Shown here in pieces: positions 21,151-53,504 of a DNA stretch of 64,000 nt. A program made the translations under genes and the position numbers. The notes below the pieces were generated by a model, which had not been told where the DNA came from, did not search any database, and was given only the letters and a program-made list of their open reading frames with translations. The stretch covers positions 11,544,501 to 11,608,500 of the forward strand of contig NC_063156.1 in the NCBI RefSeq assembly GCF_020921035.1, given 5' to 3'. Source of the DNA: Rhodamnia argentea (lineage: Eukaryota; Streptophyta; Magnoliopsida; Myrtales; Myrtaceae). Numbering within the stretch: position 1 is the stretch's first letter; each line of letters begins with the position of its first letter.

Positions 21151-22392
21151 TATAAGTTATTTGTTATGACAAGCTTCATTAACATTACTCAAGTGAACCT
21201 TGTACGAAAGTTACGATAATTGTGGTGTTTTTGTCACTCAAAGCTAAGAACAAAGTTGACTTGATATTTTATCTAACAATAACGAAAGATAATTAATCTC
21301 CGTGCGTCGCGATAGTTCCAAACAATCACCTCTTTTCGAGCATTTGGAATTAACAATTTGTAAGCTAACAAATTACTTATGTCATGCCAAAAGCCATATT
21401 TTGATTTTCCCACCATATCAGATTTTCTCATTACCGCCGAGCCAACAAACTACTTTACCAAAAGTCGGAACTCATAAATGCACGCAAAGTGAATCCTAGC
21501 GTACACGTTTTTCCGTCGTATCGGGCTTTCCCCGATCATCACGATCCGCATAACAAACTCGCCGATCGGAACCCGAGTCGGATCCGCCTGATTTGGCGAA
21601 ACGAAGCCTTCGCATCCGACATCAATACTTTCCGTAGAGACGGTCTCTCCCTCATGGAAAGACGGGCGAAATAAAGAAAGAGCGATCGATGCCGATTTCG
21701 CCTGAAAAGAACATTGCCCCCAATAGCCCCAATTTCTCTATAAACCACATAAGCGCTATGGCAACACAATGTGCCATCACCTTGTGATTTTATTCTTCAA
21801 TGGTAATGCAATTTTTCTCACACGAGCGGTCTCTCCCCTCCCTTTTACCGTGGCCTCATTCCCCTATCATTTCTGTTACCTAAGCGCTCTCTCTCTCTCT
21901 CTCTCTATCTCTCTCTTTCTCTCTCTACACATTTCTCTTTGGGTTGCATTATATAAGCGGAGAACCAAATCTCGTCATCGAACCAAAACCCTGCATTCTT
22001 ACCAAGCTCTGATCTCTCTTCGAGCTCTCTCACCCTCCCCCGACAAAAGGGAAAAAAAAATTAAAAATCCTCTCTTCCCCACAATCTCCGCAGGATTCGA
22101 TCGGTTCCAATCCGCCCCGCCGATCTGCAATTCCGCCGAGTCTGCTCTCGCGATAGTTTCGACCGTCGAGATTGAGATTGGATTTCGATTTTGGTTGTTG
22201 CTGTTGTTGTTTTCTTTTTTCTCTTCTGTTTTTAATTATTGGACTGGGTTAGATTGCGATCGAGCAATCCGAATCGGAGTGGTGGGGGTTAGATTAGAAT
22301 TCGCGTGAGGCAAATCTCAGTCTGCGGCGCGCGGCGGGGGATGGGCGGATTGTTATCTGGACGCAGGATATTGAATTGAGGGAGGGGAAACG
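21151..22392 (+). promoter_or_regulatory. Promoter and 5' UTR of the NST1-like gene
   Basis: A TATA box (TATATAAG) lies at 21950-21957, just after a CT-rich tract at 21887-21926. Transcription would be expected to start near 21980, giving a leader of roughly 400 nt to the ATG at 22393. The 3' part of this leader (from about 22100) is the left edge of the segmental duplication and recurs at 37453-37694. No gene was recognised between 21151 and 21850. Confidence 0.65.
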
Positions 22393-25300
22393 ATGCCTGG
22401 ATTAGCTGAGAGAAATGACCAATCCAGTAATGCTTCGCCGGTGCCGTCGCCGCGCACTGCCGCGTCGGCCGCGATGGCGGCCAGAGGATTTTGGTCCAAG
22501 CAGCACGATGATGTGAGCTACGGTCAGCTCCAGAAGGTAGAGGGCTTGCGGCCGGATTTCCTGGTTGGGGAATGGTCAATTCGTTGAATTTGGATTATTT
22601 GTGTTGATCTGTGTGGATTGTTGTCAGTCGAATGAATGTGGATCGAGTCCTTGCGCGCTAATCCTCTTGGGAGCTTGTTTTGCACCCCATTAGGACGCTG
22701 TTCTTTTAGCTTCAATGGGCATTCTGTTGATTGGGATATCGGATCCTCTTTGAATGCAGTCTCTATTGCGCATACTTGTGGGCTTTAAATGGTAATTGGG
22801 TGTGTACACAATGAAGTATGAATTTGGCGTGAGCATATAGGAATGTATAGTTGGTATGTAATTTAATTTGTAAGTCAGTGTCCATTGTGGTAGTACCGTA
22901 GTATCATGTATCGACTACAGGCTGCACAGTCTTGGAGCTTCTCAACATTGCCAATGTGGCTATGAGGACAGTGGTGCAAAGTTTCTGCCCATGGTGACTC
23001 TTTTGTTTGGTTCAGAGTCCTTAGTGAAAAAAGAATGGAAGAATATCACCTTAAAACTATGAACTATGATACTGTCTAAAGTAAAGTAAACATGTAGAAG
23101 AAAATAAAAGAGTGAATAGTTTATGAGAATGAGAATTGTAGATGTCAACTTCATATGCACTTTTCTTTCTCGTATGCCTATTAAATTGTTTGCCAAGAAA
23201 TGAAAATCACTAGGTAGTTTGTTCTCTAATAATGGTTTGTATAATTATGTCCCTCTTACTCTCCTCCGTCCCTTTTTATGTTTGGCTTTTGCCAGATGGA
23301 TTTCTTTTGAAAAGTTAACATATGTATTGACTTATTACTAAGAGGGAGACCTGAAATTTTTATTGCAGTTCTGGAGTGAGCTGTCCCCACAGGCGAGACA
23401 AAAGCTCCTGAGGATTGATAAGCAGACCCTTTTTGAGCAGGCTCGTAAGAACATGTACTGTTCTCGTTGCAATGGTTTGCTACTTGAAGGGTTTCTACAA
23501 ATTGTCATGTATGGGAAGTCTTTCCAGCAGGAGGGGGCAGTTGGGCACCTTATTGATAATAGTGCAGCCTCTTTGAAAACTCAGGATGAGGGTGGATTGA
23601 GTGTGACTAATAGGTGTCAGGAAGAGATTCAAGATCCTTCTGTGCATCCTTGGGGTGGTCTAACCACAACACGTGATGGGTCATTGACCATTCTAGATGG
23701 CTACTTGTTTTCAAAATCTTTGAAGGGGCTCCAAATTGTAAGTGCAATACTATATGACCATATCGTCAATTTCTTGTTATCACTTGCTGATAACTTGCTT
23801 GAATCAGGTATTTGACAGTGCACGTGCTAGAGAACGGGAGCGCGAATTACTTTATCCTGATGCATGCGGCGGGGGAGGTAGGGGTTGGATAAGTCAAAAT
23901 ACGACAAATTATGGCCGAGGACATGGGATGAGAGAAACATGTGCATTGCATACAGCCCGGCTTTCCTGTGATACACTGGTGGACTTCTGGTCAGCTCTGG
24001 GTGAAGAGACGAGGCAGTCTCTCTTGAGGATGAAGGAAGAGGATTTTATTGAGAGGCTCATGTACAGGTTTGTGGTTCTTCCCTTGTATACAACATGCAG
24101 TTAAAATGAGTGGGTTTTAGCAGGAGAACTATGTATGTTGATGAGGGGTCTGAATAAGAGCTGCGATATCCTTATGTTGACTAGAAGGTGGTTACCTAGA
24201 AATAGCTATGAATAGAGATAGGAAGCTCAATTTTGAGAAAATCCAGTTCTTCTACTAGTTAGAATACATTTAGTCCTGATTGTGTTTCCAAAAACCGACA
24301 ATTACAAAAACTGACTAAGAAGGTGGTTACCCTAGCAATAGCTATGAATAGAGATAAGAAGCAAACCTTAAAGTTTTTCTTTAAGATCTCAATGTCAGGA
24401 ACTTGTGTTTATAAGTGAACTATGATGCTGTAAATGAGACTTCACATGCTACCTGTTGTACCTTTAAAAGGGTGAGTCTGGAATGGAGAAGCATTAGATG
24501 CACTGCTGGTGGGTTGGCTTGACTGCTTGAGCCCCATAGATGTTTTTTTAGAGGTGGGGGGCATTGTGAGAGGAGTCAGTGATCTGGGTTTTGACTCCAC
24601 AGACTCTCAAATTTTTTTGAGCAAAAATAACAGTAGGTTTCAGGGTTTGTGATACATGCTGTAATGGTGCGTATAACCCATGACTTTCCCATGTCTTTGT
24701 TCATTTGTTACCTGTTCTTTATAATCGGGGGGCCAGTATTTTCCACTGTAGAAAGAGAATTTTCTTTTCATTGCCTTTAGCTAGGATTACCTGGCCGTGT
24801 CCCAAGTATCTCACTGAACTTTCTCTTTCTTGATTCTTGAATCATTGTCTTGATCTTTGTCTTCGTCCTGCTTCTTAGACTGGTATTAGGAGAGATGTAG
24901 GCATTTTTTTCCTCTCCTTGTTGCCATGCAAAAGATTTAGATAGTTTATCTGAGGAATGGGGATTGCAAAATGTAATTGTAGACTTATGTGCTTGATTTA
25001 GAGAAATGGCCATACTGCTTAATCATTTTATAATGGCACAAAGGAAGTTCTTACATGAGGAACAGAACTTACTATGAGAGTATTTTTAATTTGGAGTGTG
25101 AATAATAGGAATTTGATTAAATCTTTTCTCCATGGAAGATTTTTATTTTTTATTTTTTTATATAGGTGTTTTCCTGTGATTTACATTCGTTGTAGATATA
25201 GTTCCTAAAATTATGAAATGTTGAAGTTTGGCTTGGATGTACAGGTTTGACAGCAAGAGGTTTTGCAGAGATTGCAGAAGGAATGTCATTCGTGAGTTCA

Positions 25301-28300
25301 AGGAGCTAAAGGAGCTGAAGCGGATGCGTAAAGAACCTCGATGTACTAGATGTTTCTGCGCTGCAGATACAGCCTTCCAATACGAGGTTTGTGATTTTCT
25401 ATCCTCTTTGTTTGTTTTATTTCGATAATGGCTTCTAGTTTCCTTATCTGGATTGTGGTGAATCATTAAAAAGAGACAACTAGCAAATGAATCTATTCAA
25501 TCGAAAAGGAAAGAAGTTGGATCTTTCATGAGACTTTGGATAAGTTTAATCAGCATTCACTATTATGCCTTGGCTGTCTCTCAGGTATCTGATGAAACTG
25601 TTCATGCTGATTGGCACCAAACATTTGAGGACTCTGTGGGATTATATCATCATTTTGAATGGGCAATCGGAACAGGAGAAGGGAAGTCTGACATTCTGGA
25701 ATTTGAAAATGTTGGCCTGAGTGACAGTGTGCAAGTCACTGGCCTTGATCTTGGTGGCTTAAATGCTTGCTTTATCACTCTGAGGGCTTGGAAACATGAT
25801 GGCCGATCTACTGAAATATTTGTTAAAGCTCATGCTTTAAACGGTCAACAATGTGTGCATAGTAGGCTTGTAGTTGGCAATGGTTTCGTCACAATTACAA
25901 GAGGGGAGAGCATTAGAAGGTTTTTTGAACATGCTGAAGAGGCAGAGGAAGAAGAGGTAGTTGAAGTTCTGAGCCATAAAGCATATGTTCAAATATATGA
26001 TAGGCATGGCTCTAGAGCTTGATTCAACTGTATGTATGCTTTCAGGATGATGATTCCATGGACAAGGATAGGAATGAGCTTGATGGAGAATGCTCACGTC
26101 CTCAGAAGCATGCAAAGAGTCCTGAACTTGCTCGAGAGTTTCTTCTGGATGCCGCAATTGTTATATTCAAGGAGCAGGCATGTTAAATTTTTTCAAATTG
26201 CTGTCCTAGCTACATAGTCATCACTTCAATGTATCAACAATTATTCCGTATTCTACTGCATCTTGCTCATAGGCATCTTTTTCTGTTCCCTTGAGTGTTG
26301 TTGACTGCTCGGTGGATAATGTGGGTCATAAAGAGGAAATTCGAATTAGCTTAGTTGTATGTTTACAGTCAAGTGTTCTAACTCGATGGTATCGCTTAAG
26401 TTTAGACATTAAGTTCCAATTTTAATAGTCTGTGCTGTGTTGCTCGCAGAGCCATTTTATTTACATTTAGATAGCTATCGTCACTAAGCACAAGGTCAAG
26501 CTGTAATGTCATTTGCTATAATTTGAGTAGTTGTTGCCTGATTTATGAATATTGTTTAATGTTTCCTTAACTTGGAAAGGAACAGAAGAAATGTACTTTC
26601 CTGAATATGTTGATGCCATTTCTCAAGTGGAGAAGTAAGAATCATGTAGACTGGGGAGAGACAATAATAGCTGCATATGAGAGGACGATGAAAGTTTTTC
26701 ATCAAATTGACAGTTTTGAGGTGTTGAAGTTTAATTTGGACTATTGAATTATGGATCATTGGGGTTCGTCCCACCATATAGAATAGATTTATCAAATATG
26801 ACTGCTCAAGTCATTTTGGTCATTTGATTTTGGTGAAACCTTGTTTTGGTTCAGTTTGAATTCAGGATCTCATCTGACTTCTTTTGTCACGCTTTTCAGG
26901 TTGAGAAGGCTTTTAGAGAGGGGACAGCAAGGCAAAATGCACACAGCATTTTTGTCTGTCTTGCGTTGAAGTTACTGGAAGAACGTGTGCATATTGCTTG
27001 CAAAGAGATTATCACACTAGAAAAGCAGGTCTGTGCCTTGCTAAAGAAACACCTTTGCATTGAATATGTTTGTTCTCTGTGAAGTACCATGAACACTGCT
27101 CAAAATAACTTTGCAGATGAAACTTCTGGAAGAAGAAGAGAAGGAGAAGCGTGAAGAAGAGGAGCGCAAGGAGAGGAAAAGAACAAAAGAAAGAGAAAAA
27201 AAGCTTAGAAGAAAAGAGAGGTTGAAAGGAAAAGAAGGGGATAGAGAGAAAAAAGACATGTTGGATGATGTTCCTCCTGCTTCGTATGGCCTGAAGGATG
27301 AACCAAGACCCGGTGTCACAGAGGAGCCAAACGAGACTGCTAGCTGTGGCGATTCAATTTGTGACACTGGTGATGTTCTCACTTCCAAGTCCGGATCTTT
27401 GGATATAGAAGATGAAACATTCTCCAGTGGTGTAGAAAATTCATTTAATGAGAGTTCAGAGGTGGATTTTGCTGATGTGAAAGATGTGGCTGGTTCTTTT
27501 ACGACAGAGATATCCAAGATTTCCCAGAGAAGACCAAAGTTTCAGAAAGAAGGATTACAGGATCAAATTTTCAGGTGGTGTGACAGACGTAGACCAGCTG
27601 TTGTTTCAGAAAGTAGTGCTGCGGCTAATCGATCTGAGTCAAGATATTATAATGATAATTTTGAATTTCACTCCAGGGGCATGAATGGATGGATTAGGCA
27701 GACAAGAATGAACTCACAGAAATCAAATTCTAGAAATTCTGGCTCCAAATACTGCGAGAAGTTTCTGTCTCTCAAAAACAGGATGAATGACAGATATGAT
27801 ATGCATTCGTGTAGCTGCAACGAGATCAACTGTCAACGAGGAAAGGTTGGTCCACATTTTGCTGGGTCCAGAGCAGCTCGCGAGGGAAAATTTGGGACCA
27901 GCTCAGAATCAGCATTTGATGTATCAAAGAATTTTCACCGCAGCAATAAGTATAATCAAGTGGATTATGCTCATAGTGTTGGAAGACCAAAAAGCAGAGT
28001 AAATGGTAGCAGCATTACTAGCAGGGATATGGTCCATTCCAGGAAAGTCTGGGAGCCCATGGAATCGCAGAAGTGCCCTCGCAGCAACTCTGATTCTGAT
28101 GTTACCTTAATTGCCTCTAGTTTAAGTGTACAAGGGAAGGAGTCTGGTGATGATATTAAGTTGGTTGTTGAGTTGTGTTCAAGCGAAGATAGTCGAGATT
28201 CTATTGGAACTGATCAGAAAGTTTCCAATCGGAAAGACTTTACTGATTCTGGCAGTGGAGCCGGTGAAGTTTGCGAAAGCCGACCTGATGCTAATGCAGC

Positions 28301-29411
28301 AGATGCTCACCACTCAAGAGAAGCGACTGATGAGGAAGTTGGGTCATGTCTTGCAAGGAATGATGCCAGTAACAGGACAAGTGATTTTGTTACAAGTGCC
28401 ACTTCCAATTCCGATAACTGCTCATCATGCCTCAGTGAGGTAGACAGCAATGCATCCTCAAACCACGGAAATATAGAATCTTCATCTACATCAGATTCAG
28501 AGGATGTCTGTCCACATTCAGAAAGAAGAGAAGCCTTAACCTGTGATAGCCGTTCTGAATGTTGTAAAGTCGAGGCGGAGGCAAAAGAGGTCAAGGACAG
28601 AATGGAGGTGCTGGGTGGACAACCAGTGTTTGGGTTTCCACTTAAAAGCATGGGAACTAGTGTTGCTTCTTATACACCAGTTAAAACTCCCCACTCCTCA
28701 AATGATATAAACGGGAACCTTAGTGTAGCTTCTGAGCATCGAGGAACGCTTCCCCAAATGCACAGTCAAAGTTTGTACTTCCAGATGTTTCAGGGTCCTA
28801 CACCCATTGGTTATTACCCTCAAAATCTAGTTCCATGGCCAGCAGTTCACACTAATGGGCTAGTGCCATATCCGCATCCAAGTAATTATCTGTATGCTGG
28901 TCCTTTGGGGTATGGTCTAGATGGAAATTCTGGCTTCTGCATAGGGTATGATGCCATGTCACACTTAACTGCTGTGCCTAATACTGGTCCAGTTCCCGTC
29001 TTTCAGCCTGCTGTCAAAGCCAACAGTTACTACCCAGAGGAGAGAAACCACATTCCCAACCACAGTGTTAGTGTGAAGGACGCGAATGATGTCAACAAAG
29101 AGAAGACTGTCCAAACAGGACTGAGATCTGCGGAGTTAACAGACTGTGGGGAAAGCAGACAGAGGAGTTCTTCGGCTAAGGTGTGCCATGAGGACTCAGG
29201 CTTTTCCCTTTTCCATTTTGGCGGCCCAGTGGCTCTTTCAAACGTATCGACTCCAAATGTTGGGCCTGATGTAGGGGCGGACGGAAATATTTCTACAAAA
29301 GTTTCGACTGATCCTGTGGAAATTAATGCTGCTTGCAACAAAAAGGAAACTACTATTGAGGAGTACAATTTGTTTGCAGCTAGCAATGGAATAAGGTTCT
29401 CATTATATTAG
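22393..29411 (+). CDS. Plant NST1-like protein (stress response NST1-like)
   Basis: Eight exons join in frame: 22393-22536, 23369-23737, 23808-24067, 25245-25386, 25585-25956, 26046-26177, 26900-27028 and 27117-29411 (about 1280 residues). All introns are GT-AG except intron 6, which appears to start with GC (CAG|GCATGT). The protein has two FWS(E/A)L(S/G) segments (residues about 49 and 210) and a CxxC at 79/82. Two further CxxC pairs at about 265/268 and 291/294 may bind zinc, followed by a conserved block with HADWHQTFEDSVGLYHHFEW. An acidic EEAEEEE run precedes exon 6, and a very charged Lys/Glu coiled coil starts exon 8. The C-terminal half is Ser- and Pro/Tyr-rich and probably disordered. 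Plant homologues carry this database name from weak similarity to yeast NST1; the function is not established. The ATG lies in the same context in both duplication copies. Confidence 0.85.
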
Positions 29412-30473
29412 AGTGTGCAGAGGTGGTGTGTGGTGGTCGTGTGAGAATTCAGTCCATATCTTCTTGTTTGGTCATATAGGTCTGAGTATTTTATGGTATT
29501 TTTTTCGTGCTCAATAATTTCCCATTGAATGTCACAATTTTCGAATACAATTTTCTCTTTTCGAGTTGAGTTATTTAATCGCCTTTCGATTTTTGCCCCC
29601 GGTATGAAGAAAAAGAAAACATCTGGAACTTGCCAAGCTATCATCATAGCAGGTTTCTCTGTATGAGGTTCAGATTCGTCTATTCATGGATTTAGACTTC
29701 TTTCTTCTAATGACAAAACATCTTGGCGTATCGACTCCAATAAAATTCTGTTATTTTGGCTTCCGGAAGGGTAATCATTGACAGTTGATGAGGACGATTA
29801 CCGGATAGGAAGAGGGATGACAAATACCAAATCTCTTGAGAACTGTTTCTCTCTGGGAGTCACGCTAGAAGATCTCTCTCCTGAACGTGAACCTAGCACG
29901 AAGGTTCGCATGTACTCTCGCATGTCATGAGTTGTCGTGATTGTCAGAACATATGTGAAGATACTTTTGCAGTGTGCCTGATATTGTTTCGAGTCGATAA
30001 ATTATGGCGTTCTCGCCCCCCCGTGTTTAGCAGTCTATCCTTGGGATCTAACCTGCAAATCTATGTCTAGGCATCCATGCGTTCAAGGTTTTTGTAACTG
30101 TCAACCCTTGGTCTCAAAACTTCCAGGGCACTGCCAACCTTCGTTCTCTTTCTTTGCTCCTTTGCTTGAACCCCCCATTGATCCCTCCACAGCTTATTTC
30201 ATCCCACTTCTACAAAGTTACTCTTGCATCTGGTGTTGATCACGCTGATCTCATCCAGCATGTTTTCGTGAGCATCATGGATCGGTAGCATAGCGGACGC
30301 AGCTTAAAATACACAGCAGTTAAGGTCCTATAAAGCAACATTTGTGCAGATGGAAAAGTATATCAGCACACAACAGTTCCTCTTGTCCTTAGCTTACCAG
30401 TTACCTAACTCTGAAGTCTATCCTAGTGCTAGAGAATCCAAATGATGAAAGACCAGTTCGTTTGTAGGAGTTG
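29412..30473. other. Converging 3' flanks of the NST1-like and MTP genes
   Basis: The two genes converge here. The first ~150 bases hold the NST1-like 3' UTR and are conserved in the truncated copy at 37749-37880. The part just before 30474 is the MTP 3' UTR on the minus strand. No independent gene was seen. Confidence 0.6.
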
Positions 30474-33230
30474 TCAGTGCTGGTTATATGGGAGCCTGCT
30501 GAGCACGGAATGCTCCGGCTTGTGCTCGCACTCGAAATCTAGATGAACGAAGGCTCTTTCCACTTCAGGGAGCTCCTCAATCCTGATTTGCAATGATTCT
30601 CCGATTTCATGCGCTTCTTTCAGCGGTAAATCTTCGGACAGCTCAATATCTACCTGATATTGTCATGGTAAAATGTCCATTATGCAAACTAACTGAAATC
30701 GTTGTGTGGAATTAGCAACTCAAGCATAACAGGTTGAGGAGGTGCAACAAATCATTAGCACAAAAAACCCAAAAATTTACTAACCTCAACAAAGTAAAGG
30801 ACACCAAAGGTGTATGCACGAACTGTGTCGACGCGTTTAATTTGAGGATGGTGTCTGAGGGCAAGGTATGTCAGTTTCTGCAAGACTTCAGGTGGAGCTG
30901 ATTGCCCAACAAGAGACACTGAGAGACCAAACAGCAAAAGATTAGCACTGAGAAGAGATAGTGACTTTTATCTTCCTAGATCACATATATCAGTACAAAA
31001 TTCTCCGCTAAGAATTGATGAAATGTTGACTTTTCTCACTAACATAATAGTTGACTTGTCATATTGCATACTTTGGTCGAACAAGGTCAATTCAAAATGA
31101 ATCCCTAGATAGAGAAAGGAGAGAGAGAGGAGCTACCGGCATTTTCCAGAACTGTGCCGGACCAATTCGAAATTGTATAAACAGCGAGGACTACGGCGCC
31201 AAATGGGTCGATCCACCAAAAGAACTTATCCCCAAGAACAGCAGCAACTAAACCCACCACATTTGTCACCACATCAAAGTAATGATCCTGGTGGAATCAA
31301 AATCTTGTTAAAACGACTGAACCGTTTAGGCCCTAGTGCAGATGGCATGTTTTGTTGGCTCAACAAGCCTTGTCAATTTGGTCCGCCACTTTACCTTTGC
31401 ATACGCGCGGACTATCGTGTTCCCCGAACTCCTGCAGTAGATCCAAAGCATGAGCTTCACTCCGGTTGCCGTCAGCATAATGGTGTACAACCACACTAAC
31501 TGCTCTGATGTCATCCTTTCGGAAGAATGGTTTCTGATAAGTTGCTCGACGGCTTGGACAAGCACTTGAAATCCTGTATCTCATGGCAAAAGTAGATTTC
31601 TTTTTCATCTAGGTGTTTTCATCAAATCTTGATGAATCTCTAGAAATACTCTGTACCTTTTCCTTTATTTCCATTCTTCTGATGTGGCAAGATTTTTTGT
31701 AAACGTTTTGTGAAAGCTAGAAGACTGAGTTCTATCTATGTTTTTGCCTATGGCTTTACACAGTTATCTGATCAGATGTTTTCCACAGCAAGAGGATATA
31801 TCCTAAAGCTTTTTTGCCTTCAATATTTAAGCACTAATAATGTGCAAGATGTCATTCAATTCTTACACTGCAACCTAATATGTCCTATTCAATGAATCCA
31901 AATAATGTGACTACAGAGTAGCAAAGCTGATAATCGGAGAAACTACTCACCTAGAGTGGCCATGACAGCGGCGAAGATGATAATGCCTACCGGCTGTACC
32001 CGAAGTTTCCCGATAGGATACTTGTATTTGTCTACCGTTTCCATCGACAGGTGCGTGAACCAGAGGATACCACCGGCCATTAGATCCAGCAACGAATCTA
32101 GGGTTGATGCTGCAATGGCTATGGACCCACTCTTTATCGTGGCATATATCTGGCAAAAAGAACATATATCAGCTCATCTAAATCATTCTTGGTGAAAAAA
32201 AAATTCTATATGCTGGACAGCATTTGGAGAACCGAATCAATTCTGACATAAACCATTGCCAAATCTATTTGTTAAGGTATTACTAATTTCCATCAATTAT
32301 TTCAGATAAACAATCACAAACGTTTCAAAATAGAGACTTAGTGAAATTTTTGCTGTTTTATGCCCAATTTCACAATGTAGTAAGTTTCGTCCTTGAAGTT
32401 CAAAAGGCCATGAAGAAATTTTATGTAAATGCATACACCATAACAATGGATTCGAGTCACCGGGACGGTGGAATTAACAGTTCCATGCGTACCTTGAACA
32501 CAAGCAAGAACACATTGGCCCAATTTGATATTTTCATAGCTCTTTCATGTTCAGCTTGCAGTTTGCTGCTCTGATCTTCATCGACGATATGAGGCGATTC
32601 AAGAGACTCGACCTCTTCGAATGACCTCAACGTGGCAAACTGTCTCTCATAGTACTCCTTCTCCCCTGACAAGCCAGGAAAATAAATAAATAAAGTTAAC
32701 TGGAACGAGTTAGGAGTACTCGTAGTTGACATATGCATGACAGCATGAGTCTGCATCTTGGGATTTTTGGTTCTGTTCCATTGTACCCAAAAACCAAAAG
32801 CAAATCAGAAACATGAATCTCCATTTTCCATTTACGTGCGAAAACAGAGAGTGCTGAGAAGATCCGAGCTTTATCATGATATCCGGAAGAGTACGTGTCT
32901 ATGCATTAACAAAAATTGAGCATAAACTACTCGAACCATGATTTATGAACAATGTCTAGAAACTGAAAGGTTACCTTCAATCAAGCCAGTGGTCTTGGAA
33001 AGGTCGAGATGGAAGGGAGACTCGGGGTCAAGCCCAGACCGGACCTTGTCTGGCAATCTCAAGTAGAACTCGCGCCTCAGAGCCGAAACACAGTTGTTGT
33101 TGAAGTCATCGGCGCCATTCACTTCCGCACGTGCACCATTCCGATTGTCCTGACCAGTCTTGTCGCCGAGACTCGGCGACAACAACGGCGTTTTCACGCC
33201 ATGATCCACGCCACCGCCCCGACTCTCCAT
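30474..33230 (-). CDS. MTP9/10-like manganese-type CDF transporter (copy 1)
   Basis: Seven minus-strand exons, listed 5' to 3': 33230-32975, 32665-32493, 32149-31951, 31573-31395, 31287-31137, 30918-30785 and 30653-30474 (1272 nt, 423 residues), all GT-AG. This is a cation diffusion facilitator with about six membrane helices. The Mn-CDF signature DxxxD appears twice: DSLLD (161-165, end of helix 1/start of helix 2) and DHYFD (270-274, helix 5). The cytosolic N terminus has [14 protein letters not shown] and [18 protein letters not shown]; the C terminus has the cytosolic CDF dimer domain ending [15 protein letters not shown]. Arabidopsis MTP8-11 move Mn2+ into endomembrane compartments in exchange for protons. 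The start (MESRGGG) is chosen because the second copy starts at the matching Met; an upstream in-frame Met at 33338 is not conserved. MTP9 versus MTP10 cannot be separated here. Confidence 0.93.
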
Positions 33231-35673: not shown

Positions 35674-35676
35674 TAA

Positions 35677-41182: not shown

Positions 41183-41289
41183 GGACTTTTGGAACCCAGC
41201 CAGCAACTCAAAACCTCTCTGTATCAGATCAAAGAACTCGAGCAGAATAAATGGAAGCAGACCCCCCACTTCGAGTTGGCAGCTGTGAC

Positions 41290-41329
<40 letters not shown>

Positions 41330-41679
41330 ATAGGAACCCCAAAAAGAGAGAGACCTGTCGTCAAAAAGCAAAAACCAGAGGAACGCCCAAGAGAGAGAGA
41401 GAGAGAGAGAGAGCCCTCATTAGTGCAACTCACTTTTACTCGTTCACTTGCAGAGGGCCATCATGCTTCATCATTTGAATCCAGAATGACCAGCGAATAG
41501 GCAACCCACATGAAAAGGAAAGCTGGCAATCAATTCACCTCATGCAACTTTTCCTTAAAACAAAAGGGGAGAAGGAAAAAAAAAGCGCCTTTCTTGCTGC
41601 AAATTCTTTCTAGAGATCCCCCAAAAACAGAGCACTCCCCCGGCTACAAGCTCGAGGGAAAAAAGCTGGGAGGAAGTGG

Positions 41680-41712
<33 letters not shown>

Positions 41713-42027
41713 CCTTGTCACTTTGTTCAGTAGAAAACTGAGGCGCTGCGCCTGTAGTTGTACACGCTTCTTGAATGCATGAAGCCGTATGTATTGCTTC
41801 AGAGGCACAAAGGTGCTCCCCCACCCCAACCCACAGTTTTCTTAAAGATTCTCAATTTTAACAAATCCAATAATTAACAAGAAACATTTTGTAATTTGAA
41901 ATAAGATGAAAATAATATATTGATTTCTTTTTATTTTTATTTTTAGCAAGATTGTGGATCCAATATTCGATAATATTTAGAATAATTGACAAAAGAACAA
42001 AAAAGAAGACACATTTATCATGCCTTG
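41183..42027 (-). promoter_or_regulatory. Upstream region of MTP copy 2
   Basis: It aligns with 33231-34066 but contains simple repeats absent or shorter in copy 1: an A33 run at 41296-41328 (poly-T on the gene strand), a GA run at 41392-41412 and (GAT)9 at 41684-41711. These lie in the presumed 5' UTR or promoter and could alter expression; that is inference. Confidence 0.5.
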
Positions 42028-42119
42028 GTGGGTTTTGGAAGGTTGCTCATTAAGTGGACACGTAGTTCCTTTTTTGGACAAGTCTAGGTAAGCTTCGAAC
42101 ACCTGTCAATTTTAATCTT

Positions 42120-43050
42120 CTTTTTTTTTTTTTTTTTGAAATCTTCTCATGCATTGGCTTTTGGCTTCCTTTGGATTCCTCAGGCCTTACTATATTCTTA
42201 TATTGCTCATTGGGTCCCCCTCATCCTCTCTGCCATGTGCTTAGCTATGGTGGGTTGCGCAAGCTGGTCACCTTGCTTCGCGGAAAACGTGATGTTTCGC
42301 AAAAAAAAAAAAAAAAAAAATCTTTTCGAGAAGTCATTTTGTGTAAAATCATTATATTTTTCCGTATTTGATTGAGACCTAAAAATAAAATAGAAAATAT
42401 TTTTCGTCTTTTGGTAAGGAAAATCTCATTCGATTTCCTACGTCATCGTTTGGCCGAAAATTGCTGACGTAAATCTGATTGTCTTATGTGACATGGCCGG
42501 TGCTAACGTGGATATATTTTGTACTTTTTAAAAAAAATGACAAAAAAAATATTTTTGATTTTGTCGATATTATTTATAAATTTTTTATTTCTTTTTCTTT
42601 TTACCTCCGCCGATGAGCTCAGAGCCTTGCCCGTCTCGAGCAAGGCCGAGCCTCGTGTGAGCTCGACCTCACATGTGACCGGTTGCCGAATATCGCTGTG
42701 GCTAGCGATCGGCATAGGAAGAAAGAAAAGAAAAAATTTTAAAAAAATTAAAAATTATTAAACAAAGCAAAAAATAAAAAGGAAGGAAAAGAAAAGAAAT
42801 AAAAACAAAAGTAGCTAAAAAAAAGAAATGTGAAGGAAAGCATGGAGGAAAGAGGAGGGAAAATGATTTCCTCCTCTCTTCAAAAAGAGGAAATCATTTT
42901 CTCCACTTTTGAATGTGTTTTTTCAACTGGTGAAAAATATTTTCCTTAACTAGATTATGTTCTATGAACCAAATGCCTAAAAATCTGTAATTCTTTTGCT
43001 ATAAGTTTGTTTTCCGTGAAATAAATGGAGCATTTCTTTTTCTCACTTTT
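42120..43050. mobile_element. Copy-2-specific insertion block (transposon-derived)
   Basis: The flanks (GTTCCTTTTTTGGACAAGTC at 42067 and GAATTTGATTGAGTCA at 43073) are adjacent in copy 1 (35686-35782). The inserted ~0.9 kb includes an A20 run at 42301-42320 and an AT-rich MITE-like part with a GC-rich centre near 42600-42720. No terminal repeats or target duplication were defined, so the class is open. Confidence 0.45.
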
Positions 43051-43204
43051 TTTTGGGCCAAATTTTTTTGGGAATTTGATTGAGTCACTTGGTTGAGAAC
43101 ATGGACAAGAGGGTGGAAGAAAAAAAAATTGAGAAAACCAGAATAAAAAAGTCCACGAAGGAGCACTTTCCAATTAGAGTTTTTCAGGAATAAAATATGG
43201 TCAA

Positions 43205-43470
43205 TGATTCCGTACTACGATTTGGCTGAGGGACTTTAGGACACCCTTGGAGAAATGCACCGGGTATCGTAGCTAATCGAGTAGCTCTGGAAGCATGCGT
43301 ACAAGCTCGTGACTAGGGACGTGATCTTGCTTGTGAGGATAATGAAATTATCCGTGAGGCTAGCAAATGGAATCCTACACTAGATGCTGCTTGTGAAGTA
43401 TGCAAGGAGACCAAATTTGAATTCAGGACAATGGATACTTTGTAATCCGCTATTTCCCATTCGTTCTCGT
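43205..43470. other. Copy-2-specific ~265 bp insertion, unidentified
   Basis: The copy-1 counterpart runs directly from ATATGGCCAA to TTGAGATTGGGCTCATGC (about 35885-35915). In copy 2 the two halves are separated by this insert. It has a moderately open frame with one stop, but no recognised domain. Confidence 0.4.
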
Positions 43471-44919
43471 AATATCATGATTGGGTTCATCCTAAGCTTA
43501 ATGCATATCTTGTTTGGGACCGTGAAGAATGAAATGAAATGAAGTTATGTCGTTTGAACTCGTATAGCTAGCTTGCACATAGACATGAGCTGGATCAAAT
43601 TTACATTTTACTTTTATTTGTGATTATCTCAGTCAACCCCTATACACTTTACCTTGTCTCGATTAATCCCTTGAGATTTTATTGCTTATCTCAATTTGGC
43701 CACGAATATTAATTTAAATGACTGCTTTGACGAAGTCCGAGACACATGGCATCACATACAGAAGCTCTGATCTGACCTTTAATGATGGTAAAATTCTGAT
43801 GACACGTCGTTTTTCTATTCGATGTGTTTGTAAGTCACATGTTCATTTCACGATCTTTCTTAGTTCACGAAAAGTTGGAATTTGTATTGGAAGGCAAAAG
43901 GGTGAACACTACATGAACTAGGCTCTCTATCCTTAAATTAATCACTAAGATATGAATTTAAGCACCTGCACTACGCAAGCTAACTGTCAAATGATTATTA
44001 ATGTATCGTCTGTTCTCATTATACGGAAAATCAATAAGCTCTCTCTAAGCACGTCTGACTTGTGCCCGTTCAACAATTGCTCCCAAGGCAGACGCTGAAG
44101 AACCTTACATAATTTTTTAAAGCAGGAAGTTGCACGCTTGAGAATCTGTGTGGTGGTAGAAGCCGTAATTGTGATTTAAGGCCAGATTAAGACATAAATA
44201 AAATTGTAAAATGGCTTACCGAGCCAAATTAATCTATAAAAGTTAAGTTGACCTAGATAAAAATGTAAATTTTTTAGGTGATGATGATGGAATGAAATGA
44301 CTGGTAAATGGGGTTGTATCTTCATTTGGTCTTCGTCATCATGATTCATCATCGTCGTGTGCTTCTGCAGAATTAAATTTTTTTTCCATTGAAGATGGTG
44401 GGTTCGGGGCAAACTATTTTGGGAATCCTAGGAGCACTAATTGCTCATTGCAGTTGGTGTCTTGAAGCTTTAAATGGAACTTGGAGAAATAAATGGTGCA
44501 AACATTTATTGACACTTCCTAATGCAGGAATCAGACTAAGTTATGAATGCACCCCATTAGGACATGCTCCTAAATAGAGTTAACCTTCTTCAAGGTTGGC
44601 TGTGAGGATGTTTAACCCCCACCACCCTGCAACAAGCTTGTAACTTTGGCTATATAATTCAATAAGCGGGAAAATTATAAAAAAAAAAAAAAGTCTTAAA
44701 CACATCGTACTTTTGCCAATTCGGTTCTAAATCTTGTAATTATGTCAATTGAATCCTAAAATTGTTTACGTTCTGCCAATTAAATCCATCCGATCAATTT
44801 TAACCGGAAATCGCTAACGTGGACAATATCTTTTATTTTAAGTTTTTTTTTTTTACTTTTTATAATTTTTTATTTTTGTTTTATTTTTTCTGATTTCTTT
44901 TTTTTACCGTGGCCAATGG

Positions 44920-47829
44920 TAGAGAATGCCATTTGGGCCCGTGGGCCCGGAACCGGTCCGTTGACCGGCCCGGAACTGGCCCGTTGACCGGGCCCACGGT
45001 TCCAACCCGGGAACCGTGGGAACCGGCTTGAACCGCCGGTTCGGGGCCGGTTCGGAACCGTGAAGAAAAAAAAAAAAAAAAAAGGCGGGGCCCGGGGGCG
45101 GAGAGCCGTTGAGCTCTGCCCGGGCCCCGCCCAGCCCCCCTCTCCCCCCACCTCCCCCTCTTTGGGCCGTTGCTAAAAATTAAAAAAAAAATTAAAATTA
45201 ATTCTTGCCTATAAATACATATGCTCCCTCTTTCATTTTTGTCACAAATTCTCTGAACAATCTCTCGAATTCTCTACGAAATCCTCTCAAATCGCTCAAA
45301 TTCTCCCAATTCTCTCAATCCCGACTCAATTCTCTCAATCGGATTTCCGATCAATTCTCTCAAAAATGGCAAGTGGAAGCGGAAATGCCGACAAGGGCAA
45401 GATGACTATGGGAGATTCCGAGTATCCCATTCCCGAATATGATCCTCGTGAGTATGCAAGTTGGGAAGACGATGACGATAATATCAACTATGTCCCGATT
45501 CCGAACGTCGAGCACATCCCAACACAAAAAAGTCTTCATCCTCCCACCGGTGTCGAAGAAGCGTCAACGGCAAATGAGCCGGACCCGAAGGGCCAAGATA
45601 ATACATCTGACTTGTGGCTACACTTCGACAAGGTACGTGATGAAGGCGAAGGTAAGTATAATATAAAATGTAAATATTGTTCGCAAACATATAAATTTAC
45701 GAAAGAAGACGGCTACGGAACATTCCGTCGGCATTTGACGAAAAAACATCCAACGCAAGCGGGGATCGACAATACGCAACAACAAATTTCCGGGTACGCC
45801 ACTTCTAATCCTCATCCTATATTTCGTTTCACTGAAGCACTTTATAAACAAACATTAGGTGAATATGTTGCCCTTGATCATGCTCCGTTTAATATTGGTG
45901 AAAATTTTAATATGAAACATTTGATAAATACTGTGTTGGTTCCTCAAGCGCCAATTATTCCAAAAAATACTCTTAAACGCAAAGTTTTTCATCTTTATAA
46001 AAAAGGAAAAAAATCTTTAGCAAAATTTTTTGCGGAATTCAATGGACGTGTGCATATAGGTAGCGATATTTGGAGTGATCCTTGGCAAATTCATTCTTAT
46101 ATGGGTGTCACGTATGATTGGATAGGTGACGATTGGACGATTCAAAAAAGACTTATTGCATTCCGAGTTTTTGATGAAAAACATTCGGCTCATAATATTT
46201 ATAGAATAATTAGGCAAGTTTTAGAAGAATATAATTTAATAAATAAAGTATTTTCAATTGGTTTTGATAATGCCGCCGCAAATACCGCTTCTATTCCCGA
46301 ATTAGAAAATATTTGTAAACCCACTTTTGGCGGACAATTTTTTCACATTAGATGTGCTTGTCATGTTTTAAATTTATGTGTACAAGATGGTTTACGAACT
46401 CTTGACACTTCTCTCGCCCCAATAAAGAGTACAGTTAAATTTTTATGGAGTCGTCCCCATTGTATGAAATCATGGGGAAAATTTTGTAAACAAAATGGGA
46501 GAAGGGCAAGAAGATTTCCAAAAGATATTCCGACTCGTTGGAATTCTACGTACGAGTTGCTTCGGCAAACTTTTGAATATAAAGATTTATTATGTATGTT
46601 TATTTCACAAAATATTCCCGAAATTACTTTACTTCCTCAACATTAGGACGTTTGCAAGAAAATTTTAGATATTTTGAAAATTTTTAATGATGCTACTAAG
46701 ACTTTATCTGGTATTTATTATCCTACTACGCATTTATTTTTAATAGAGTGTGTTAATATTAGTAGTGTTTTTAGTGAATATGAAAATGATATCGAATTAG
46801 GTCGAACTATTTTAGTAATGCGAGAAAAATGGTTGCATTATTATTTGTAAATTCCTCTTGTCTATTTCATTGGTATTGTTTTTGATCCACGTATTAAATT
46901 AGACGGTTTACAAGATTATTTGAATGTGTATTATCATGATTGTTTACATTTGGAAGATTCAATAGATATTTCAAATATAGTAGGAGATGTTAAAGAATCT
47001 ATAGTAGCATTATATGGAGAATTTTGTAGTAGATATGGTTTAAGTGATTACGGATCTTTACAATCCACTGCCTCACGTAGCGAAGGTGGTAGTTCACTTA
47101 GTAGAGGGTATAATATGCTTAAGAGTAGGCAAAAAAAAAACAAAAATGGGCAACGGGTAGTATTTCTGAATTAGAAAAATATTTAACCACTCAATTTGAG
47201 TTTCGTGATGCAGAACATAGTACAGATTTCGAAATCCTGAAGTGGTGAAAGAGTCACCAAATCGATTATCCAGTTCTCGCCCTCATCGCTTGTCGGATAT
47301 TAGCAACCCCTTCTTCAACGGTTGCGGTTGAACAAGCATTTAGTGCTGGAGGATTAATTTTGGATTCTCGCCATTCAAGATTAAGCCCGGACTCTGTGGA
47401 AGTTCAAGCTTGTGTCGGCGATTGGACGAGGGCGAAATATCAACACCAAGAGTTAGATCGTGAACACGAATTTTTTAGCGATGATGTTGGAGATACCACC
47501 GCCACGGGTACCACAACGGGTAGCGACGATTGACGATGAGGTAAGTTGGGGTTCTCAAATGTAAAATAACTACATAGGCTTTGATTCTTCTATCCCCAAG
47601 AAGATATGTAGGCGCTTAATGATAATTCATTAAGTTCAAGCCCATTCCTCCTCTCTCTTTTTTCCCCATATTTTATTACAATGTACAATTTAATTATATT
47701 TTATAATTTATAATTTATTATGTTTATTTTATTATTTATTATTTTAAAAATTAATATTAAAAAAGGAATCGGAATGAACCGCCGGTTCTCGAACCGGAAC
47801 CGGCGGTTCCACCGAACCGGCCGTGTATA
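44920..47829 (+). mobile_element. hAT transposon (formerly autonomous)
   Basis: A transposase-bearing element nested in the TIR element. The tentative left end is TAGAGAATGCCATTTGGG and the right end is CCGTGTATA. The 8 bp flanks GCCAATGG and GCCGGTGG match at 6 of 8 positions. Subterminal regions contain repeated GGAACCGG/CCGGTTCC motifs (44947-45060, 47775-47820). Boundaries are provisional; element identity rests on the transposase. Confidence 0.7.
45366..47533 (+). pseudogene. hAT transposase (Ac/RICESLEEPER-like), broken
   Basis: The first 426 codons (45366-46646) are open. They include a BED zinc finger (C102, C105, H123, H128) and the DDE-fold segments GSDIWSDPW and FSIGFDNAAAN. The frame then stops at 46644 (TAG) and about 46848 (TAA), shifts frame near the A10 run at about 47132-47141, and stops again near 47246 (TGA). 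The C-terminal hAT dimerisation domain is still readable (AVEQAFSAGG ... VEVQACVGDW), ending at 47533. The protein would have cut and pasted hAT elements with 8 bp target duplications. Three stops plus a frameshift mean this copy is inactive, though decay looks modest. Confidence 0.9.
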
Positions 47830-48187
47830 GCCGGTGGAGTCACATGGCCCTCACCAACCATAAGTGAGGCTAGCGAAGCTCTTATCGATGGCAGTGCCAC
47901 AATAAAAAAGAAAAGCAAAGAAGGAAAAGAGAAGAAAATAAAATAAAACAAAAAAATAAAAAATTAGAAAAAAATATTAAGTCATGTTAAAAATTCCTCA
48001 CATCAACGTCGGTCATGCCATATAGAACGGTCGGTGTTCACATTAGCAATTTTTCCCCAAAATTAATCGTATGGACTCAATCGACGTAACATGAAAAATT
48101 TTAGAACTCAATTGACACAATTAAAAAGTTTAGGACTCAATTGGCAAAAATGCAATACGCGTAGTACTTTTTGAACAATTATCTCTC

Positions 48188-48615
48188 GAGTAGCCAGCCT
48201 GCTATCTCAGGCAGAACTCTATGAACCAACGTAGAAACTCAATACCAGTCAATTCGTTTCTTGCTCCAACTACATCTACCACAATACCCAATCCACCACC
48301 CCCATTCATATATACCAACACATCCAACCCAACCAAATACAGAGGAACTTTTTTTTCACCCTTCTGAACAGAACGTGCAAAGAAAAAAATTGAAGATAAA
48401 GAGCTCTCATGAAACTTTTCATGTCAAACGAGTTTCACTTTGGAAGTCGCAATTGATTCTAAGTTGGCCGCCCCACCGCTGTAGTTTCGCCATGGCTTAC
48501 TTCGAACATCGACTATGCCCGACGGAACATCCACCGGATCCGACAATCCCGAATGCTCAACAAGTCGCAAAATGCATGAGAATGAATCGAGTTGTGTGGC
48601 GACCTTGATTTCTCG
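48188..48615. other. Continuation of duplication copy 2 between transposons
   Basis: It resumes the copy-2 alignment (CTGCTATCTCAGGCAG at 48199-48214) and weakly matches 36770-36900 around 48440-48560. The minus frame at 48645-48424 is open but its copy-1 counterpart is in a different frame with stops. Not called as a gene. Confidence 0.45.
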
Positions 48616-49117
48616 GTTTTGAATAGAGGTGTCTATATGGGTCAACGACCTACTTTTTTTAACTCAACTTTTATATACTTGGATCATATATAAGTTCACA
48701 AAATTTAAAAAATAAATCAAATATGGGTTTAACCTTATAAAGCCTATTCAAATATGAGTTTTAGCTCAATGTACTTTCAATCCATTTTTGACCCATGGCT
48801 TATAGCTTTCTAAGTCCCCCACCGCCCACCGCCACCACCCGTCACAGTTGCCTCCCGGTGCCGCCACCGCTGGCCGCCCGCCACCGCCACCACCCGCCAC
48901 CACCACCTCCCGTGGGGCTCGATCTTAGGAAGGCGAAACACCGTTACCAATGATCATCTTACTCTTCCCTCTTTCGCGCGAACACCGTTACCACTCCTGT
49001 TGCTTCTCTCTCCAACACCACGGCCTGGATCCCCACGCGTGCAAAGGCCCACCCGCACGTGTAAAGATAGAGATAGAGATAGAAAGAGAGAGCGCCCTTC
49101 CCCACGCATGGCCATAT

Positions 49118-51966
49118 TGTGACGCCCTGGAAATTAGACCCTCTTTGCAGAGACCAAGTTCAATAAAAAAAAGGATCATTATTGGATTTTAATCGGTACA
49201 AAATGTGGATCGTAAGGACGAAAGTGACGATTATTTGGACAATTTCCGAGTTATCGTTCGGTTTAGATTAGGTTCCAATAATCTTAGTCGTCATGAATTA
49301 GGATCGAAATCTTCGCGCCCGAGCCTATTTCCGGACCGAGCCTAACCCGCGAAATCAGAATTTTATTCTCAGTCCGTTAAGCCAAAATTCCACTTAGTCT
49401 CGATTTATCGAATGACCGTTTTGCCCTTTCTTCTTTATGTACAAAATGCCAAAATATTCAAATCCAAGATGGGCCCCACTTGTCCCCTCATCCCTTCAAT
49501 CTTCCACCGACTCATCCCATCACCTTTTCCCCCCCCTCTTTCACGTCACTTCCCTTTTCTCTTTCTCTCTCTCTCTTTTTCCCCTCCCCCACGTGCTATT
49601 TTCCCTCTCCCTTTCTCCCTCTCTTTCTTTTCTCTCCTGCTGCGATCAGACCCCCCTCCCCCACATTATTATCTCTTCTTCTTCTTCTTCTTCTTCTTCT
49701 TCTGGTCTCCCTGTGCGACGCCCCCCTCTCCATCAAATCTGCTGCTGCACCACCGACTGCAGCTCCCACCGCTGCTCCACCTCGCCCCGGCCACCACCCG
49801 AGAGCCGCCTCTACGAGCCGCCGAGCTACTCCAGCTCAGACCCGTCAACTCCTCCACCTCACCCGGCCGGATCTCGTCGCCTTGTAGCCCCGACCACCAG
49901 ATCCGAGCCCGAGCTCCAGCCGCCACCGCCGCCATCACCTCGCCGGTAACCACCCGAACCAGACGCCTCAGCCGCCGAAACCCTAGATCCGGCCGCTGCC
50001 CAGTCGCGTCGCCACCGGAAATCGGCGACCCGAAACCGGACGCCCGAGACCCACCAGATTTAGGTGTTCCGACCGCCGAAATCGAAGCCCCGCCGTCGTC
50101 CCGAGAGCGTATAGTCGGATTTCCGTTCGGTGAACAGTGCGGGGGGGGGTGAATAGTGTTCAGCGAACAGTACGTATGAACAGTACCGGTGAATAGTGTT
50201 CGGTGAACAGTACCGCGTGAATAGTACCTTGCCGGCCGTGAATAGTAACCGGCGTGAACAGTGCCGCCGGCCGATCGTGAACAGTAATTCCGGCGGTGAA
50301 CAGTATTTTTCGGCATCCGCCTCGAAGTTCGTGCCCGACCCGACATCAACCGCCGTTGTTGTGAGTCGACCTCTAAATCCCGATTAGGGTGCTAATTGCG
50401 CTCAGTTAGTGTAATTAGTGGTAATTAATTGTTGCAATTAGAGTAATTAGCCTAATTGGATGTTTAGGTAGCCTAATCGTGGTCGATTAAATAGAGACTG
50501 GGTTTAAGTTAAATGACCACGATTAATTAAGTCGGTTTGCTAGTTAGGAGGTCTGCGGCTATTTGGTAGTAGATCAGAGTGATTGTTTGGGCGGTGATTG
50601 CCGGTGTGTGATCGCGAACGAGCGATAGGACAGAGCCGAGTGGACGCTCGATTGGTGGTTGGCTTGGAATTTCGATAGTCGAATTATAAATTTGGATTGA
50701 CTTTCATCATAAGATTATTGAAAGATATTGGCCGATTGTCCCGATTGCGTGTCTGGATGCTTGGTTTTGGTGTGTTGGATGTTTTGAACGAAAATTGTGG
50801 GTGTCGGTCCCATGTTGTCGGATGCAAAGTCTGGTGGACAATTTGTGCATCCATGCGAACCGAGCAAAAGCAAACCGCATATTTTTAGCATGAAAACGGC
50901 ATGGTGCCAAGTCTTTGATCATGAATGTATGAGCATCCGGCTAAGTCTAAAGATAAGAATTTGACTGATTGTTGTCGAATGCGATTGAGTGGTCACTTAA
51001 TGGTTGTTCCTGACAAGTTCGTACCGTGCTAGTCGTGCGGAACCACACGACTTGTCGAAGCCACGTCAATTCGCGCCCGTGCCGGTCGTACGGATCACGC
51101 GAATTGTCGGATGCCGGTCGCGACTTGTGACGGACCGAAGCTCCTTTGTGGAATGCCTGTTTGCTATGTCGTGCCGGTTGCACTGGATACATAGCTTTCG
51201 ATCGCCGTCACCGGAAGTAAGGGACGATACACGGTCCCGCCAATAGACACTCCCGGTCGTAGTGTTGGGGCCACACCGGTCGTGTGTGCCGACCACGCCG
51301 GTCGCGTGGGTCACCGATTAATAAATGGACTTCGTGTGGTGTCCTATGCATGCAAGTGATGTGATGCCTTGCCATGCCAATGAATTGGATTGGTTGATTT
51401 GAGTGTTAAGTCGTCTGCATTGCATTATGCGTGGCTTTTGAATGGTAAGCTTGCATGTGGCTGAGATATCTGCTATGAGATGTTGTGGTTGTTTTATTAG
51501 GACGTACGAGCGAATCAACGCCCTAGCCGGGCTTAGGCGTTGACTCACCGAGATTTATTTCTCACCCCGTCGTGGGCTAACATTTTCGGGTCCTGAGTGA
51601 TGGAACCCCATGGATGCCGGGATTCGGTTGCTGGATTAGTCTTTTGAAGTAGATGAAGGTTTAACCTTAGTATCTTTGTTTTGAGATCCTCGAGAGCCGC
51701 CCCGAAGTGTGGGGTTGTATGTGACTACTGTAGCTCAGTAGGGTTAAGGTTCATCTACTTTTGAGTAATGAACGAAGAAGTCTTTTGAATGAACGACTGT
51801 TAAGCTTTCCTAATATACTATCTACGATATTTGTAATTATTTGGGAGTGTAGCACGTTTCGCTTGCGTTTTAAGTACGTAGGTCGATAGCCCGCCCGGGA
51901 CACTATCATCTATGACCTGTGGCGAGTTGGTAGGGATGTCGCGAGCTCGAGAGTCGGGGCGTGACA
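49118..51966 (+). mobile_element. Solo LTR of a Ty3/gypsy element (2849 bp)
   Basis: It begins TGTGACGCCC and ends GGGGCGTGACA, with a perfect 5 bp duplication CATAT at 49113-49117 and 51967-51971. It shares the stretch CTCACCCCGTCGTGGG with the LTRs of the element at 8111-18692 (in reverse there), so it belongs to a related but distinct family. No internal region remains, the usual result of LTR-LTR recombination. Frames such as 49412-50152 are proline/serine-rich LTR sequence, not genes. Confidence 0.92.
50129..50304 (+). repeat. Cluster of GTGAA(C/T)AGT motifs
   Basis: About eleven copies or close variants of GTGAACAGT/GTGAATAGT occur in ~176 bp at irregular spacing, inside the solo LTR. 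Confidence 0.8.
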
Positions 51967-52987
51967 CATATATTCGATTAAACTCAGATGAAAGAGTGGT
52001 ATTCTTTCTCGATTCGAAGCTCAAATCTAAGCCTGGGTCATGCACGGCCTAGAGGGAGAACGCATTTACTCCACGCTTCAATCCCACAACACTCACGTCA
52101 CGATGTTTCTCTCGCTCTCTCTCGCTCCTCGTGCACTCTCAGCCACCGAAGCAAGTCCATCTCCACCGGCCACCGAAGCAAGTCCATCTCCACCGGCGCT
52201 GCACATCCGCCGCCGGGAGTCCTCTGCATGGCTGCCTCATCCCTCGCCGAGGGCCACCACCCTCCACGAAAAAAGGAAGCAAAAAGTCCACGTGGAGATG
52301 AATAAATAAAACAGGGGAAAAGGGGGGTTGAGGTAGTGCTGACAAAAGGGGAATCGGGGAGAAGCAAAACGCCAGAATTGAGTTACGTAAGTTGTTGAGA
52401 CGGAACCCAGACAAAGGCGCTCTCTCTCTGTGTAGCTGAGGTTGGCTCACACGCGTGGGGGGTGATAACAATGTAACGTACAGTAGTAACAACACGCGGG
52501 CGGGCGGTGGTGGGGTGGGCAACAGTGGCAGCGGCAGCAGCAGGAGGTTGGCAGTGGCAGTGGCAGTGGCAGGAGGGCGGCAGCGGGCGGTCGGTGGTGG
52601 CAGCGGAGAAGGGTGGGAGGTGTTAATATGGGTTGGGCCGGATATGGATTGAGTCGGATACGGGTTATTGAATTTTCATTACATAAATATTGGTCAAAAT
52701 TGGTTAAATGGATCAATATGGATTGGATCATATTCGACCCGACCCAAATCCATCCTAACTCATTTGACGCCTCTAGTTTTGAACCGTGACCTCCTTCCTC
52801 GAGAAGTTGGTATGCGCGTGTTCTCAGGGCGATTTTAGTTCACTGGATTTTAGTTCTCAGGGCGATTTACCGAATTGGAAGTTTCGAAACCTCGTGTTAT
52901 GAAAAACAATAATGGATGAAGAGCATCGGTTTTGATCAGCCTGTGCGGGAGTTGGGCATTTGGGAGTCTCGGAGAAGGAAATTCATA

Positions 52988-53102
52988 TCAAAGAAGGCGG
53001 GACCAGGAAGCAGATTCTCAGGATGGGGAACTTCGCGGCTGACTCCTTATCCAGGCGACCATGTACACGGTGCTCGCACACAACTGTTTGGTGTTTTCCA
53101 TG
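52988..53102. repeat. Terminal marker of duplication copy 2
   Basis: It matches 37340-37452. On the minus strand both copies preserve a similar short frame starting GKHQTV, hinting at an old gene fragment that was not identified. Confidence 0.65.
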
Positions 53103-53504
53103 CTGTCATATGAGCGAATGACGGACAGTGTTTCGTTCATGCGTTCTCGGAATGCAGTCTGTTGCAGCGGAGCCAGACAAATGAAGGGCAGTGCTCATCT
53201 CGATTCGAGCAATGAAGACAGGAAAATGCATCTTGAGCCCCCTTTTCTTGTGGTGATCTAGCATTGAATTCCCCCCTATGAACATTACTTGGATGGAGAA
53301 TTGGCTGCTAAATTCCGTACGCTCCTGGCATATCTAATAGAACTCAATTCAAATATTTTTTAACTTTCTTTTATGCTTCCTGCAAGCGTAGGTTGTCTCC
53401 TTGCTGATGAGACAGTGTCCTAAAGTAAATGGTGAGGCGATTGAAGTACGGTCTGCCTTCTTGTCCCTCCCAACGTCACTCTTGTTTTCGATCATCGAGA
53501 CGTC

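Follow-up and report, generated by a model that had tools for sequence, protein, structure and literature searches.

Proteins of the Mn-type CDF group are marked by DxxxD motifs, and MTP8 belongs to group 8 within this type. At3g58060 and MTP8 are named together in the literature, and we take At3g58060 to be MTP8 and to adjoin At3g58050. Tandem arrangements of MTP genes are already described for Myrtaceae, as the EgMTP1 cluster of E. grandis is presented as consisting of head-to-tail MTP copies with Ka/Ks <1 (PMC10163719). In maize, segments of DNA were moreover documented to occur as direct tandem copies, which the account of reversed-ends transposition of Ac describes as made by transposons (PMC3744419).

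A window of 64,000 nucleotides from Rhodamnia argentea was analyzed, corresponding to C7:11544501-11608500 of an assembly of 346.7 Mb in 74 contigs, in which C7 comprises 30,013,793 bases. Both MTP proteins encoded in this window resemble MTP8 and the group 8 Mn-CDF in harboring Cation_efflux and ZT_dimer domains, each exceeding the curated Pfam cut-offs, and two DxxxD motifs (DSLLD and DHYFD), which presumably sit in membrane helices. On these features the pair is predicted to belong to the Mn-type CDF (MTP8-11). Unlike MTP8, the genes form a tandem pair, and both proteins carry the NCBI name 'metal tolerance protein 4-like', so that we refer to them as putative MTP8-type. In comparison to the EgMTP1 cluster as presented in PMC10163719, a whole unit is duplicated here, both of its ends lie within cut genes, the join is readable, and the MTP is of the predicted Mn type. 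In contrast to the maize Ac case as described in PMC3744419, no element end was seen at the join, and the transposon-like insertions lie within copy B.

Extent and colinearity of the duplicated unit

The duplicated unit begins within the 5'UTR of an NST1-like gene, takes in a convergent MTP gene of the putative Mn type and ends inside the first intron of an FKBP-type gene. Copy A (22123-37448) and copy B (37455-53100), to which as wholes no strand is assigned, are colinear. In a permissive BLAST comparison of copy A with copy B, 15 of the 19 rows were on the same strand and in one increasing order; the other four were three weak off-line matches (27168-27254 with 42779-42863, plus a pair of overlapping rows around 34566-34637 with 47916-47998) and one region matching itself. 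The in-line matches, all on the same strand, include 22123-22436 with 37455-37738 (74.5% identity), 29418-29542 with 37749-37875 (86%), 30359-32419 with 37931-40039 (79%), 32447-32681 with 40221-40455 (91.5%), 32785-33366 with 40734-41310 (76%), 36562-36594 with 44501-44533, 36707-36772 with 48189-48255 and, as a terminal marker, 37345-37448 with 52996-53100 (81-83%). Neither here nor in the self-BLAST, of which the 38 of 48 rows with at least 40 columns were tabulated, did any match extend beyond 22123/37448 or 37455/53100. The right end of the unit abuts its left end at 37448/37455.

After removal of both insertions from copy B, the order was kept in a global alignment as far as the marker. 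The joined local score with the insertions left out was 110.5, a value reached by none of 300 dinucleotide shuffles (best 71). By itself, 52784-52995 had a score matched in 0/300 shuffles. For 48173-48623 one of 300 shuffles matched the score, and 37050-37320 is only weakly homologous to its partner; these two results count against the explanation favored below. The flanking 50 kb on either side were searched with the duplicated block up to 44690, and a single match of 158 bases and 74% identity was obtained (42883-43040 to window coordinate 86818), the outer flanks being otherwise unique. As this match is probably a repeat, there is no third copy within 50 kb on either side.

Divergence between the copies was estimated over 14 blocks. 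K2P ranged from 0.14 to 0.38 without an obvious trend and with wide scatter on the short blocks: 0.221 at the NST1 5' end, 0.142 in the 3'UTR, 0.21-0.38 in the MTP introns, 0.15-0.33 in the upstream blocks and 0.215 in the marker. Such similar divergence along the unit fits one old event.

The initial annotation had proposed a head-to-tail duplication that should appear as a continuous diagonal in a dot-plot. In a self-comparison, a colinear series of direct matches was present, and the proposal is borne out by the 15 of 19 rows in line, the comparable divergence throughout the unit and the FKBP-type gene that is cut at the join. The order NST1, MTP, upstream DNA and marker had been said to occur twice; order and strand are indeed the same in both copies, but the second NST1 is only a remnant and two transposon-like insertions interrupt copy B. 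Adjacent copies sharing several elements in the same order and on the same strand thus constitute a head-to-tail segmental tandem duplication. We are highly confident that one segment of about 15 kb, reaching from the NST1-like 5'UTR through the convergent MTP8-type gene into FKBP intron 1, was duplicated head to tail once and long ago, that the NST1 copy is dead and the MTP pair retained, and that the join was likely formed without long homology. The copying of this segment is the first step of the course of events, and colinearity, truncation and similar divergence all show it.

Both insertions interrupting copy B are unassigned as to strand. Insertion 1 (44688-48172) is transposon-like: its inverted ends measure 138 nt, frames for zf-BED and hAT dimerisation lie inside, and it perhaps represents nested elements. 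Insertion 2 (48624-52775, 4,152 bases) is flanked by an 8-base target duplication, GTTTTGAA, at 48616-48623 and 52776-52783, and short hAT-like inverted ends were recognized by eye. No hAT frame was found within insertion 2, and when ten open frames from the window were searched against Pfam, the only match was a weak one to hAT RNase-H, below its cut-off. Inside insertion 2, the stretch 49118-51968 starts with TGTGACGCCC and ends with GGGCGTGACA, and by eye resembles an element nested there that has ends of its own. Copy A has no counterpart of either insertion, and one of the two is flanked by a target duplication of its own; the simplest reading is therefore that both arrived after the segment had been duplicated.

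Further repeats were observed elsewhere in the window. Another tandem duplication, about 3 kb long and far younger (8109-11125 and 15763-18692), shows 94% identity between copies 7.6 kb apart; in an open frame at its edge (8000-8410), no Pfam domain was detected in the one frame tested. Adjacent 2-kb direct copies of about 82% identity (59413-61502 and 61507-63493) directly follow an EMC3/TMCO1-like frame (58692-59363). At the window start (1-230) lies a 230-base repeat with 97% identity to a partner about 2 kb left of the window, and protein-kinase frames are located at 1255-2311.

The join and the truncated FKBP-type gene

By three-way comparison, the join was located at 37449-37454 (no strand), six bases that can be assigned to neither side with confidence. 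Previously placed near 37452, it is thus readable to six bases. NST1-like homology, expected from about 37453, resumes at 37455 in BLAST, and the marker boundaries given earlier (37340-37452 and 52988-53102) agree with the BLAST limits of the marker to within about 8 bases. The unit limits at 22123 and 37448/53100 put the left break into the 5'UTR of NST1 and the right one into the first intron of FKBP.

The marker is homologous to 52996-53100 and to an FKBP-TPR type paralog at C7:10.02 Mb, 1.5 Mb from the window (L005, 4874-8746). In copy A it forms an FKBP-type fragment on the forward strand (37324-37448), which consists of the start codon, exon 1 (37324-37417) and 31 bases of intron 1. The right-hand FKBP-type copy (52948-55026, forward strand) aligns in five blocks to L005 8712-4874 and passes through the break point; from exon 1 to 53100 it has 31 bases as well, but its sequence continues past the break. 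This relative of the L005 paralog is degenerate, as stretches of L005 are absent, and no Pfam domain was detected in 53429-53824 (one frame tested). When exons 8745-8592, 8502-8416 and 7986-7727 of L005 are spliced together, an open frame results, and FKBP_C was detected in these first three exons with E=3.6e-29. The FKBP_C domain of this model spans the intron in which the break lies, and a TPR_2 match beyond the cut-off is found further along the paralog, which is consequently predicted to be an FKBP-type isomerase gene. Given that both the right-hand copy and L005 extend past this point, 37448 is a real truncation.

Could this arrangement be a composite, with a local duplication of the MTP gene and separate insertions of an FKBP and an NST1 piece between its copies? 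FKBP-type sequence does occur elsewhere, at C7:10.02 Mb, and the marker was found in at least four places in a genome search, counting itself and its NST1 partner. Furthermore, the marker does not clearly group with its window partner: among 108 ungapped columns, 6 were shared by copy A and the right-hand copy alone, 10 by copy A and the distant FKBP alone, and 11 by the right-hand and the distant sequence alone. The copy A fragment is hence no closer to its right-hand counterpart than it is to the distant FKBP, in a comparison of three sequences that is unrooted and lacks an outgroup, so that these counts do not decide the origin of the fragment. For a composite, however, two independent pieces would have to land side by side, their order and strand precisely as expected from one duplication and the upstream DNA matching too, which makes this scenario very improbable compared with a single duplication of the whole segment.

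How the join was formed was addressed by comparing the break points. Beside the join, 22105 and 53096 have five bases, TTCCA, in common. Sharing at this level was reached in 15% of left-flank shuffles (0.15), and 7% (0.07) did as well as the join when it was extended with gaps into the left flank, so that TTCCA as a microhomology is not clearly beyond chance. The initial annotation had hoped that the join would show its mechanism; this hope was disappointed, as these five bases are the sole candidate.

The duplication might also have arisen through repeats that recombined non-allelically, or through element ends that underwent alternative transposition. Copy B contains transposon-like insertions, and transposon-made tandem duplications are documented for maize Ac, according to PMC3744419. 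Yet the stretches at the break points (13 and 28 bases) have no common string longer than 5 bases, the self-BLAST revealed no repeat flanking both break points, and inspection by eye showed no element end at 22123, 37448 or 53100. Long repeats at both break points, by which non-allelic homologous recombination is recognized, are absent from the stretches compared and from the self-BLAST. In addition, the insertions are inside copy B with none in copy A and, with one having its own target duplication, most simply arrived later. We therefore regard a repeat- or transposition-based route as unlikely. Most likely, end joining or template switching sealed the break, and no long homology was involved. 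With no long repeat or element end seen and the microhomology statistically unsupported, these processes are the default and not a result. The second step is set by the join itself, which put the FKBP 5' end before an NST1 copy lacking its original upstream DNA.

Fates of the NST1-like and MTP genes

The intact NST1-like (AT3G58050-like) gene, LOC115737657, is located at 22393-29411 on the forward strand and comprises 8 exons and 1280 codons, with an open spliced model. The sole difference to NCBI isoform X2 of LOC115737657 is an 8-residue splice choice. A GC-AG intron is required at the end of exon 6 (window 26177), and the NCBI protein concurs. No domain was detected in a Pfam search of the protein, and among the best 120 listed relatives most are named 'hypothetical' or 'uncharacterized' and a few 'Stress response protein NST1' or 'like AT3G58050'.

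In copy B, this gene is represented by 37455-37875 (forward strand), containing the 5'UTR, an ATG at 37695 followed by 15 codons, 10 unaligned bases and the 3'UTR. Positions 37455-37738 correspond to 22123-22436, and homology continues from 37749 onward with 29418 onward, so that copy B has no counterpart of 22437-29417 (6,981 bases) and in its place has the 10 unaligned bases 37739-37748. The residual frame comprises 26 codons, of which 15 stem from exon 1. The second NST1-like copy is a dead remnant and not a gene. While the loss of 7 kb is evident, it would have taken place some time after the duplication.

The MTP genes are both on the reverse strand and have 7 exons each: copy A (30474-33230) encodes 423 aa and its model is identical to P0001, and copy B (38051-41182) encodes 422 aa with a model identical to P0005. 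Both frames are open, and 367 of 421 residues are identical. Ks between the two genes, which had been suggested as a means of dating the event, was 0.383, 0.350 and 0.290 with three methods, and Ka was 0.065-0.073. With Ka/Ks at about 0.2, the copies, as a pair, are kept by purifying selection. At sites conserved in the outgroups, 10 lone changes were found in MTP A vs 4 in MTP B. Retention of both copies under purifying selection, with more lone changes in copy A, forms the third step. Gene conversion was considered for exon 2, which lies in the 91.5% block; the exon (161/173 identical) and the flanking intron pieces (40/46 and 14/16) are too short to call it.

Adjacent near-duplicates are also the classic mark of unpurged haplotigs, and the window could in principle represent two haplotypes of one locus placed end to end by the assembly. 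Against such an artefact, the Ks of 0.29-0.38 and the K2P of 0.14-0.38 are far above the allelic level and exclude a haplotype or assembly duplicate, no N is present in the window or in 50 kb on each side, and NCBI has both MTP proteins on a contig of this length. The probability we assign to such an artefact is negligible.

Ancestral arrangement and age of the duplication

NST1-like and MTP proteins apparently reside on one contig in at least 19 species besides Rhodamnia, with contigs equated by size as a proxy and the count resting on two lists of the best 120 out of 2541 and 419 matches. Locus tags were near-consecutive in 5 of those 19: Hevea (009358/009360), Vitis rotundifolia (010850/010851), Reevesia (0195600/0195800), Ulmus (005119/005121) and Cinchona (007495/007497). 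This sharing of contigs across species suggests that one pair is probably ancestral, and NST1-like plus MTP is probably an old neighborhood that was duplicated once here. In Syzygium oleosum, both genes are on one contig of 12.5 Mb. For E. grandis, PMC10163719 gives 20 MTPs, of which group 8 accounts for only two, located on chromosomes 2 and 11; such a distribution would be compatible with one gene at the corresponding locus, which is presumed to be that of Eucgr.K01853.

A protein tree was calculated from 23 MTP rows, hand-picked from the best 120 of a longer list of relatives. MTP A was placed outside the five other rows of its clade (four Myrtaceae and P0003) with a support of 89/82, below the star of the tool. 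In AU tests, MTP A and B as sisters gave p=0.019, A+B+P0003 p=0.049, and the same with Syzygium added p=0.13; as these clades were named only once the tree had been seen, the p values flatter rejection. An origin of the duplication in Rhodamnia only is thus weakly rejected by the protein alignment. Strict site counts over 20 rows were evenly divided, with one site for and one against. The long branch of MTP A could pull copy A outward in the tree, and an early split is accordingly suggested, not shown.

Plastid data in PMC8796035 place the split of Myrteae from Syzygieae plus Eucalypteae at 62-80 Ma, and the same source puts the splits among the three tribes at roughly 55-80 Ma. PMC9271057 dates Syzygieae vs Eucalypteae to about 65-70 Ma. 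The trees given in these sources conflict, with Syzygieae joined to Eucalypteae in PMC8796035 and Syzygieae and Myrteae on one side in PMC9271057. The duplication may be as old as these tribe splits. A tentative, rather doubtful joint reading would be that the duplication predates the splits of Myrteae, Syzygieae and Eucalypteae, that Rhodamnia is the sole Myrtaceae in the best-120 list to keep the faster-changing MTP A, and that the join set the second NST1 behind the FKBP promoter, a capture later erased by deletion.

Among the literature matches listed for Rhodamnia argentea, tandem duplication and metal tolerance, none combined all three and none concerned this locus. The locus represents a clear but ordinary segmental tandem duplication that is unusually well resolved; since its seam is too old for the joining mechanism to be read, the case has no bearing on a long-standing question. 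Taken together, one old tandem duplication led to three fates, with two transporters kept, their neighbor reduced to its ends and a gene truncated at the join, and the retained MTP pair is a candidate for testing divided metal roles in a tree.
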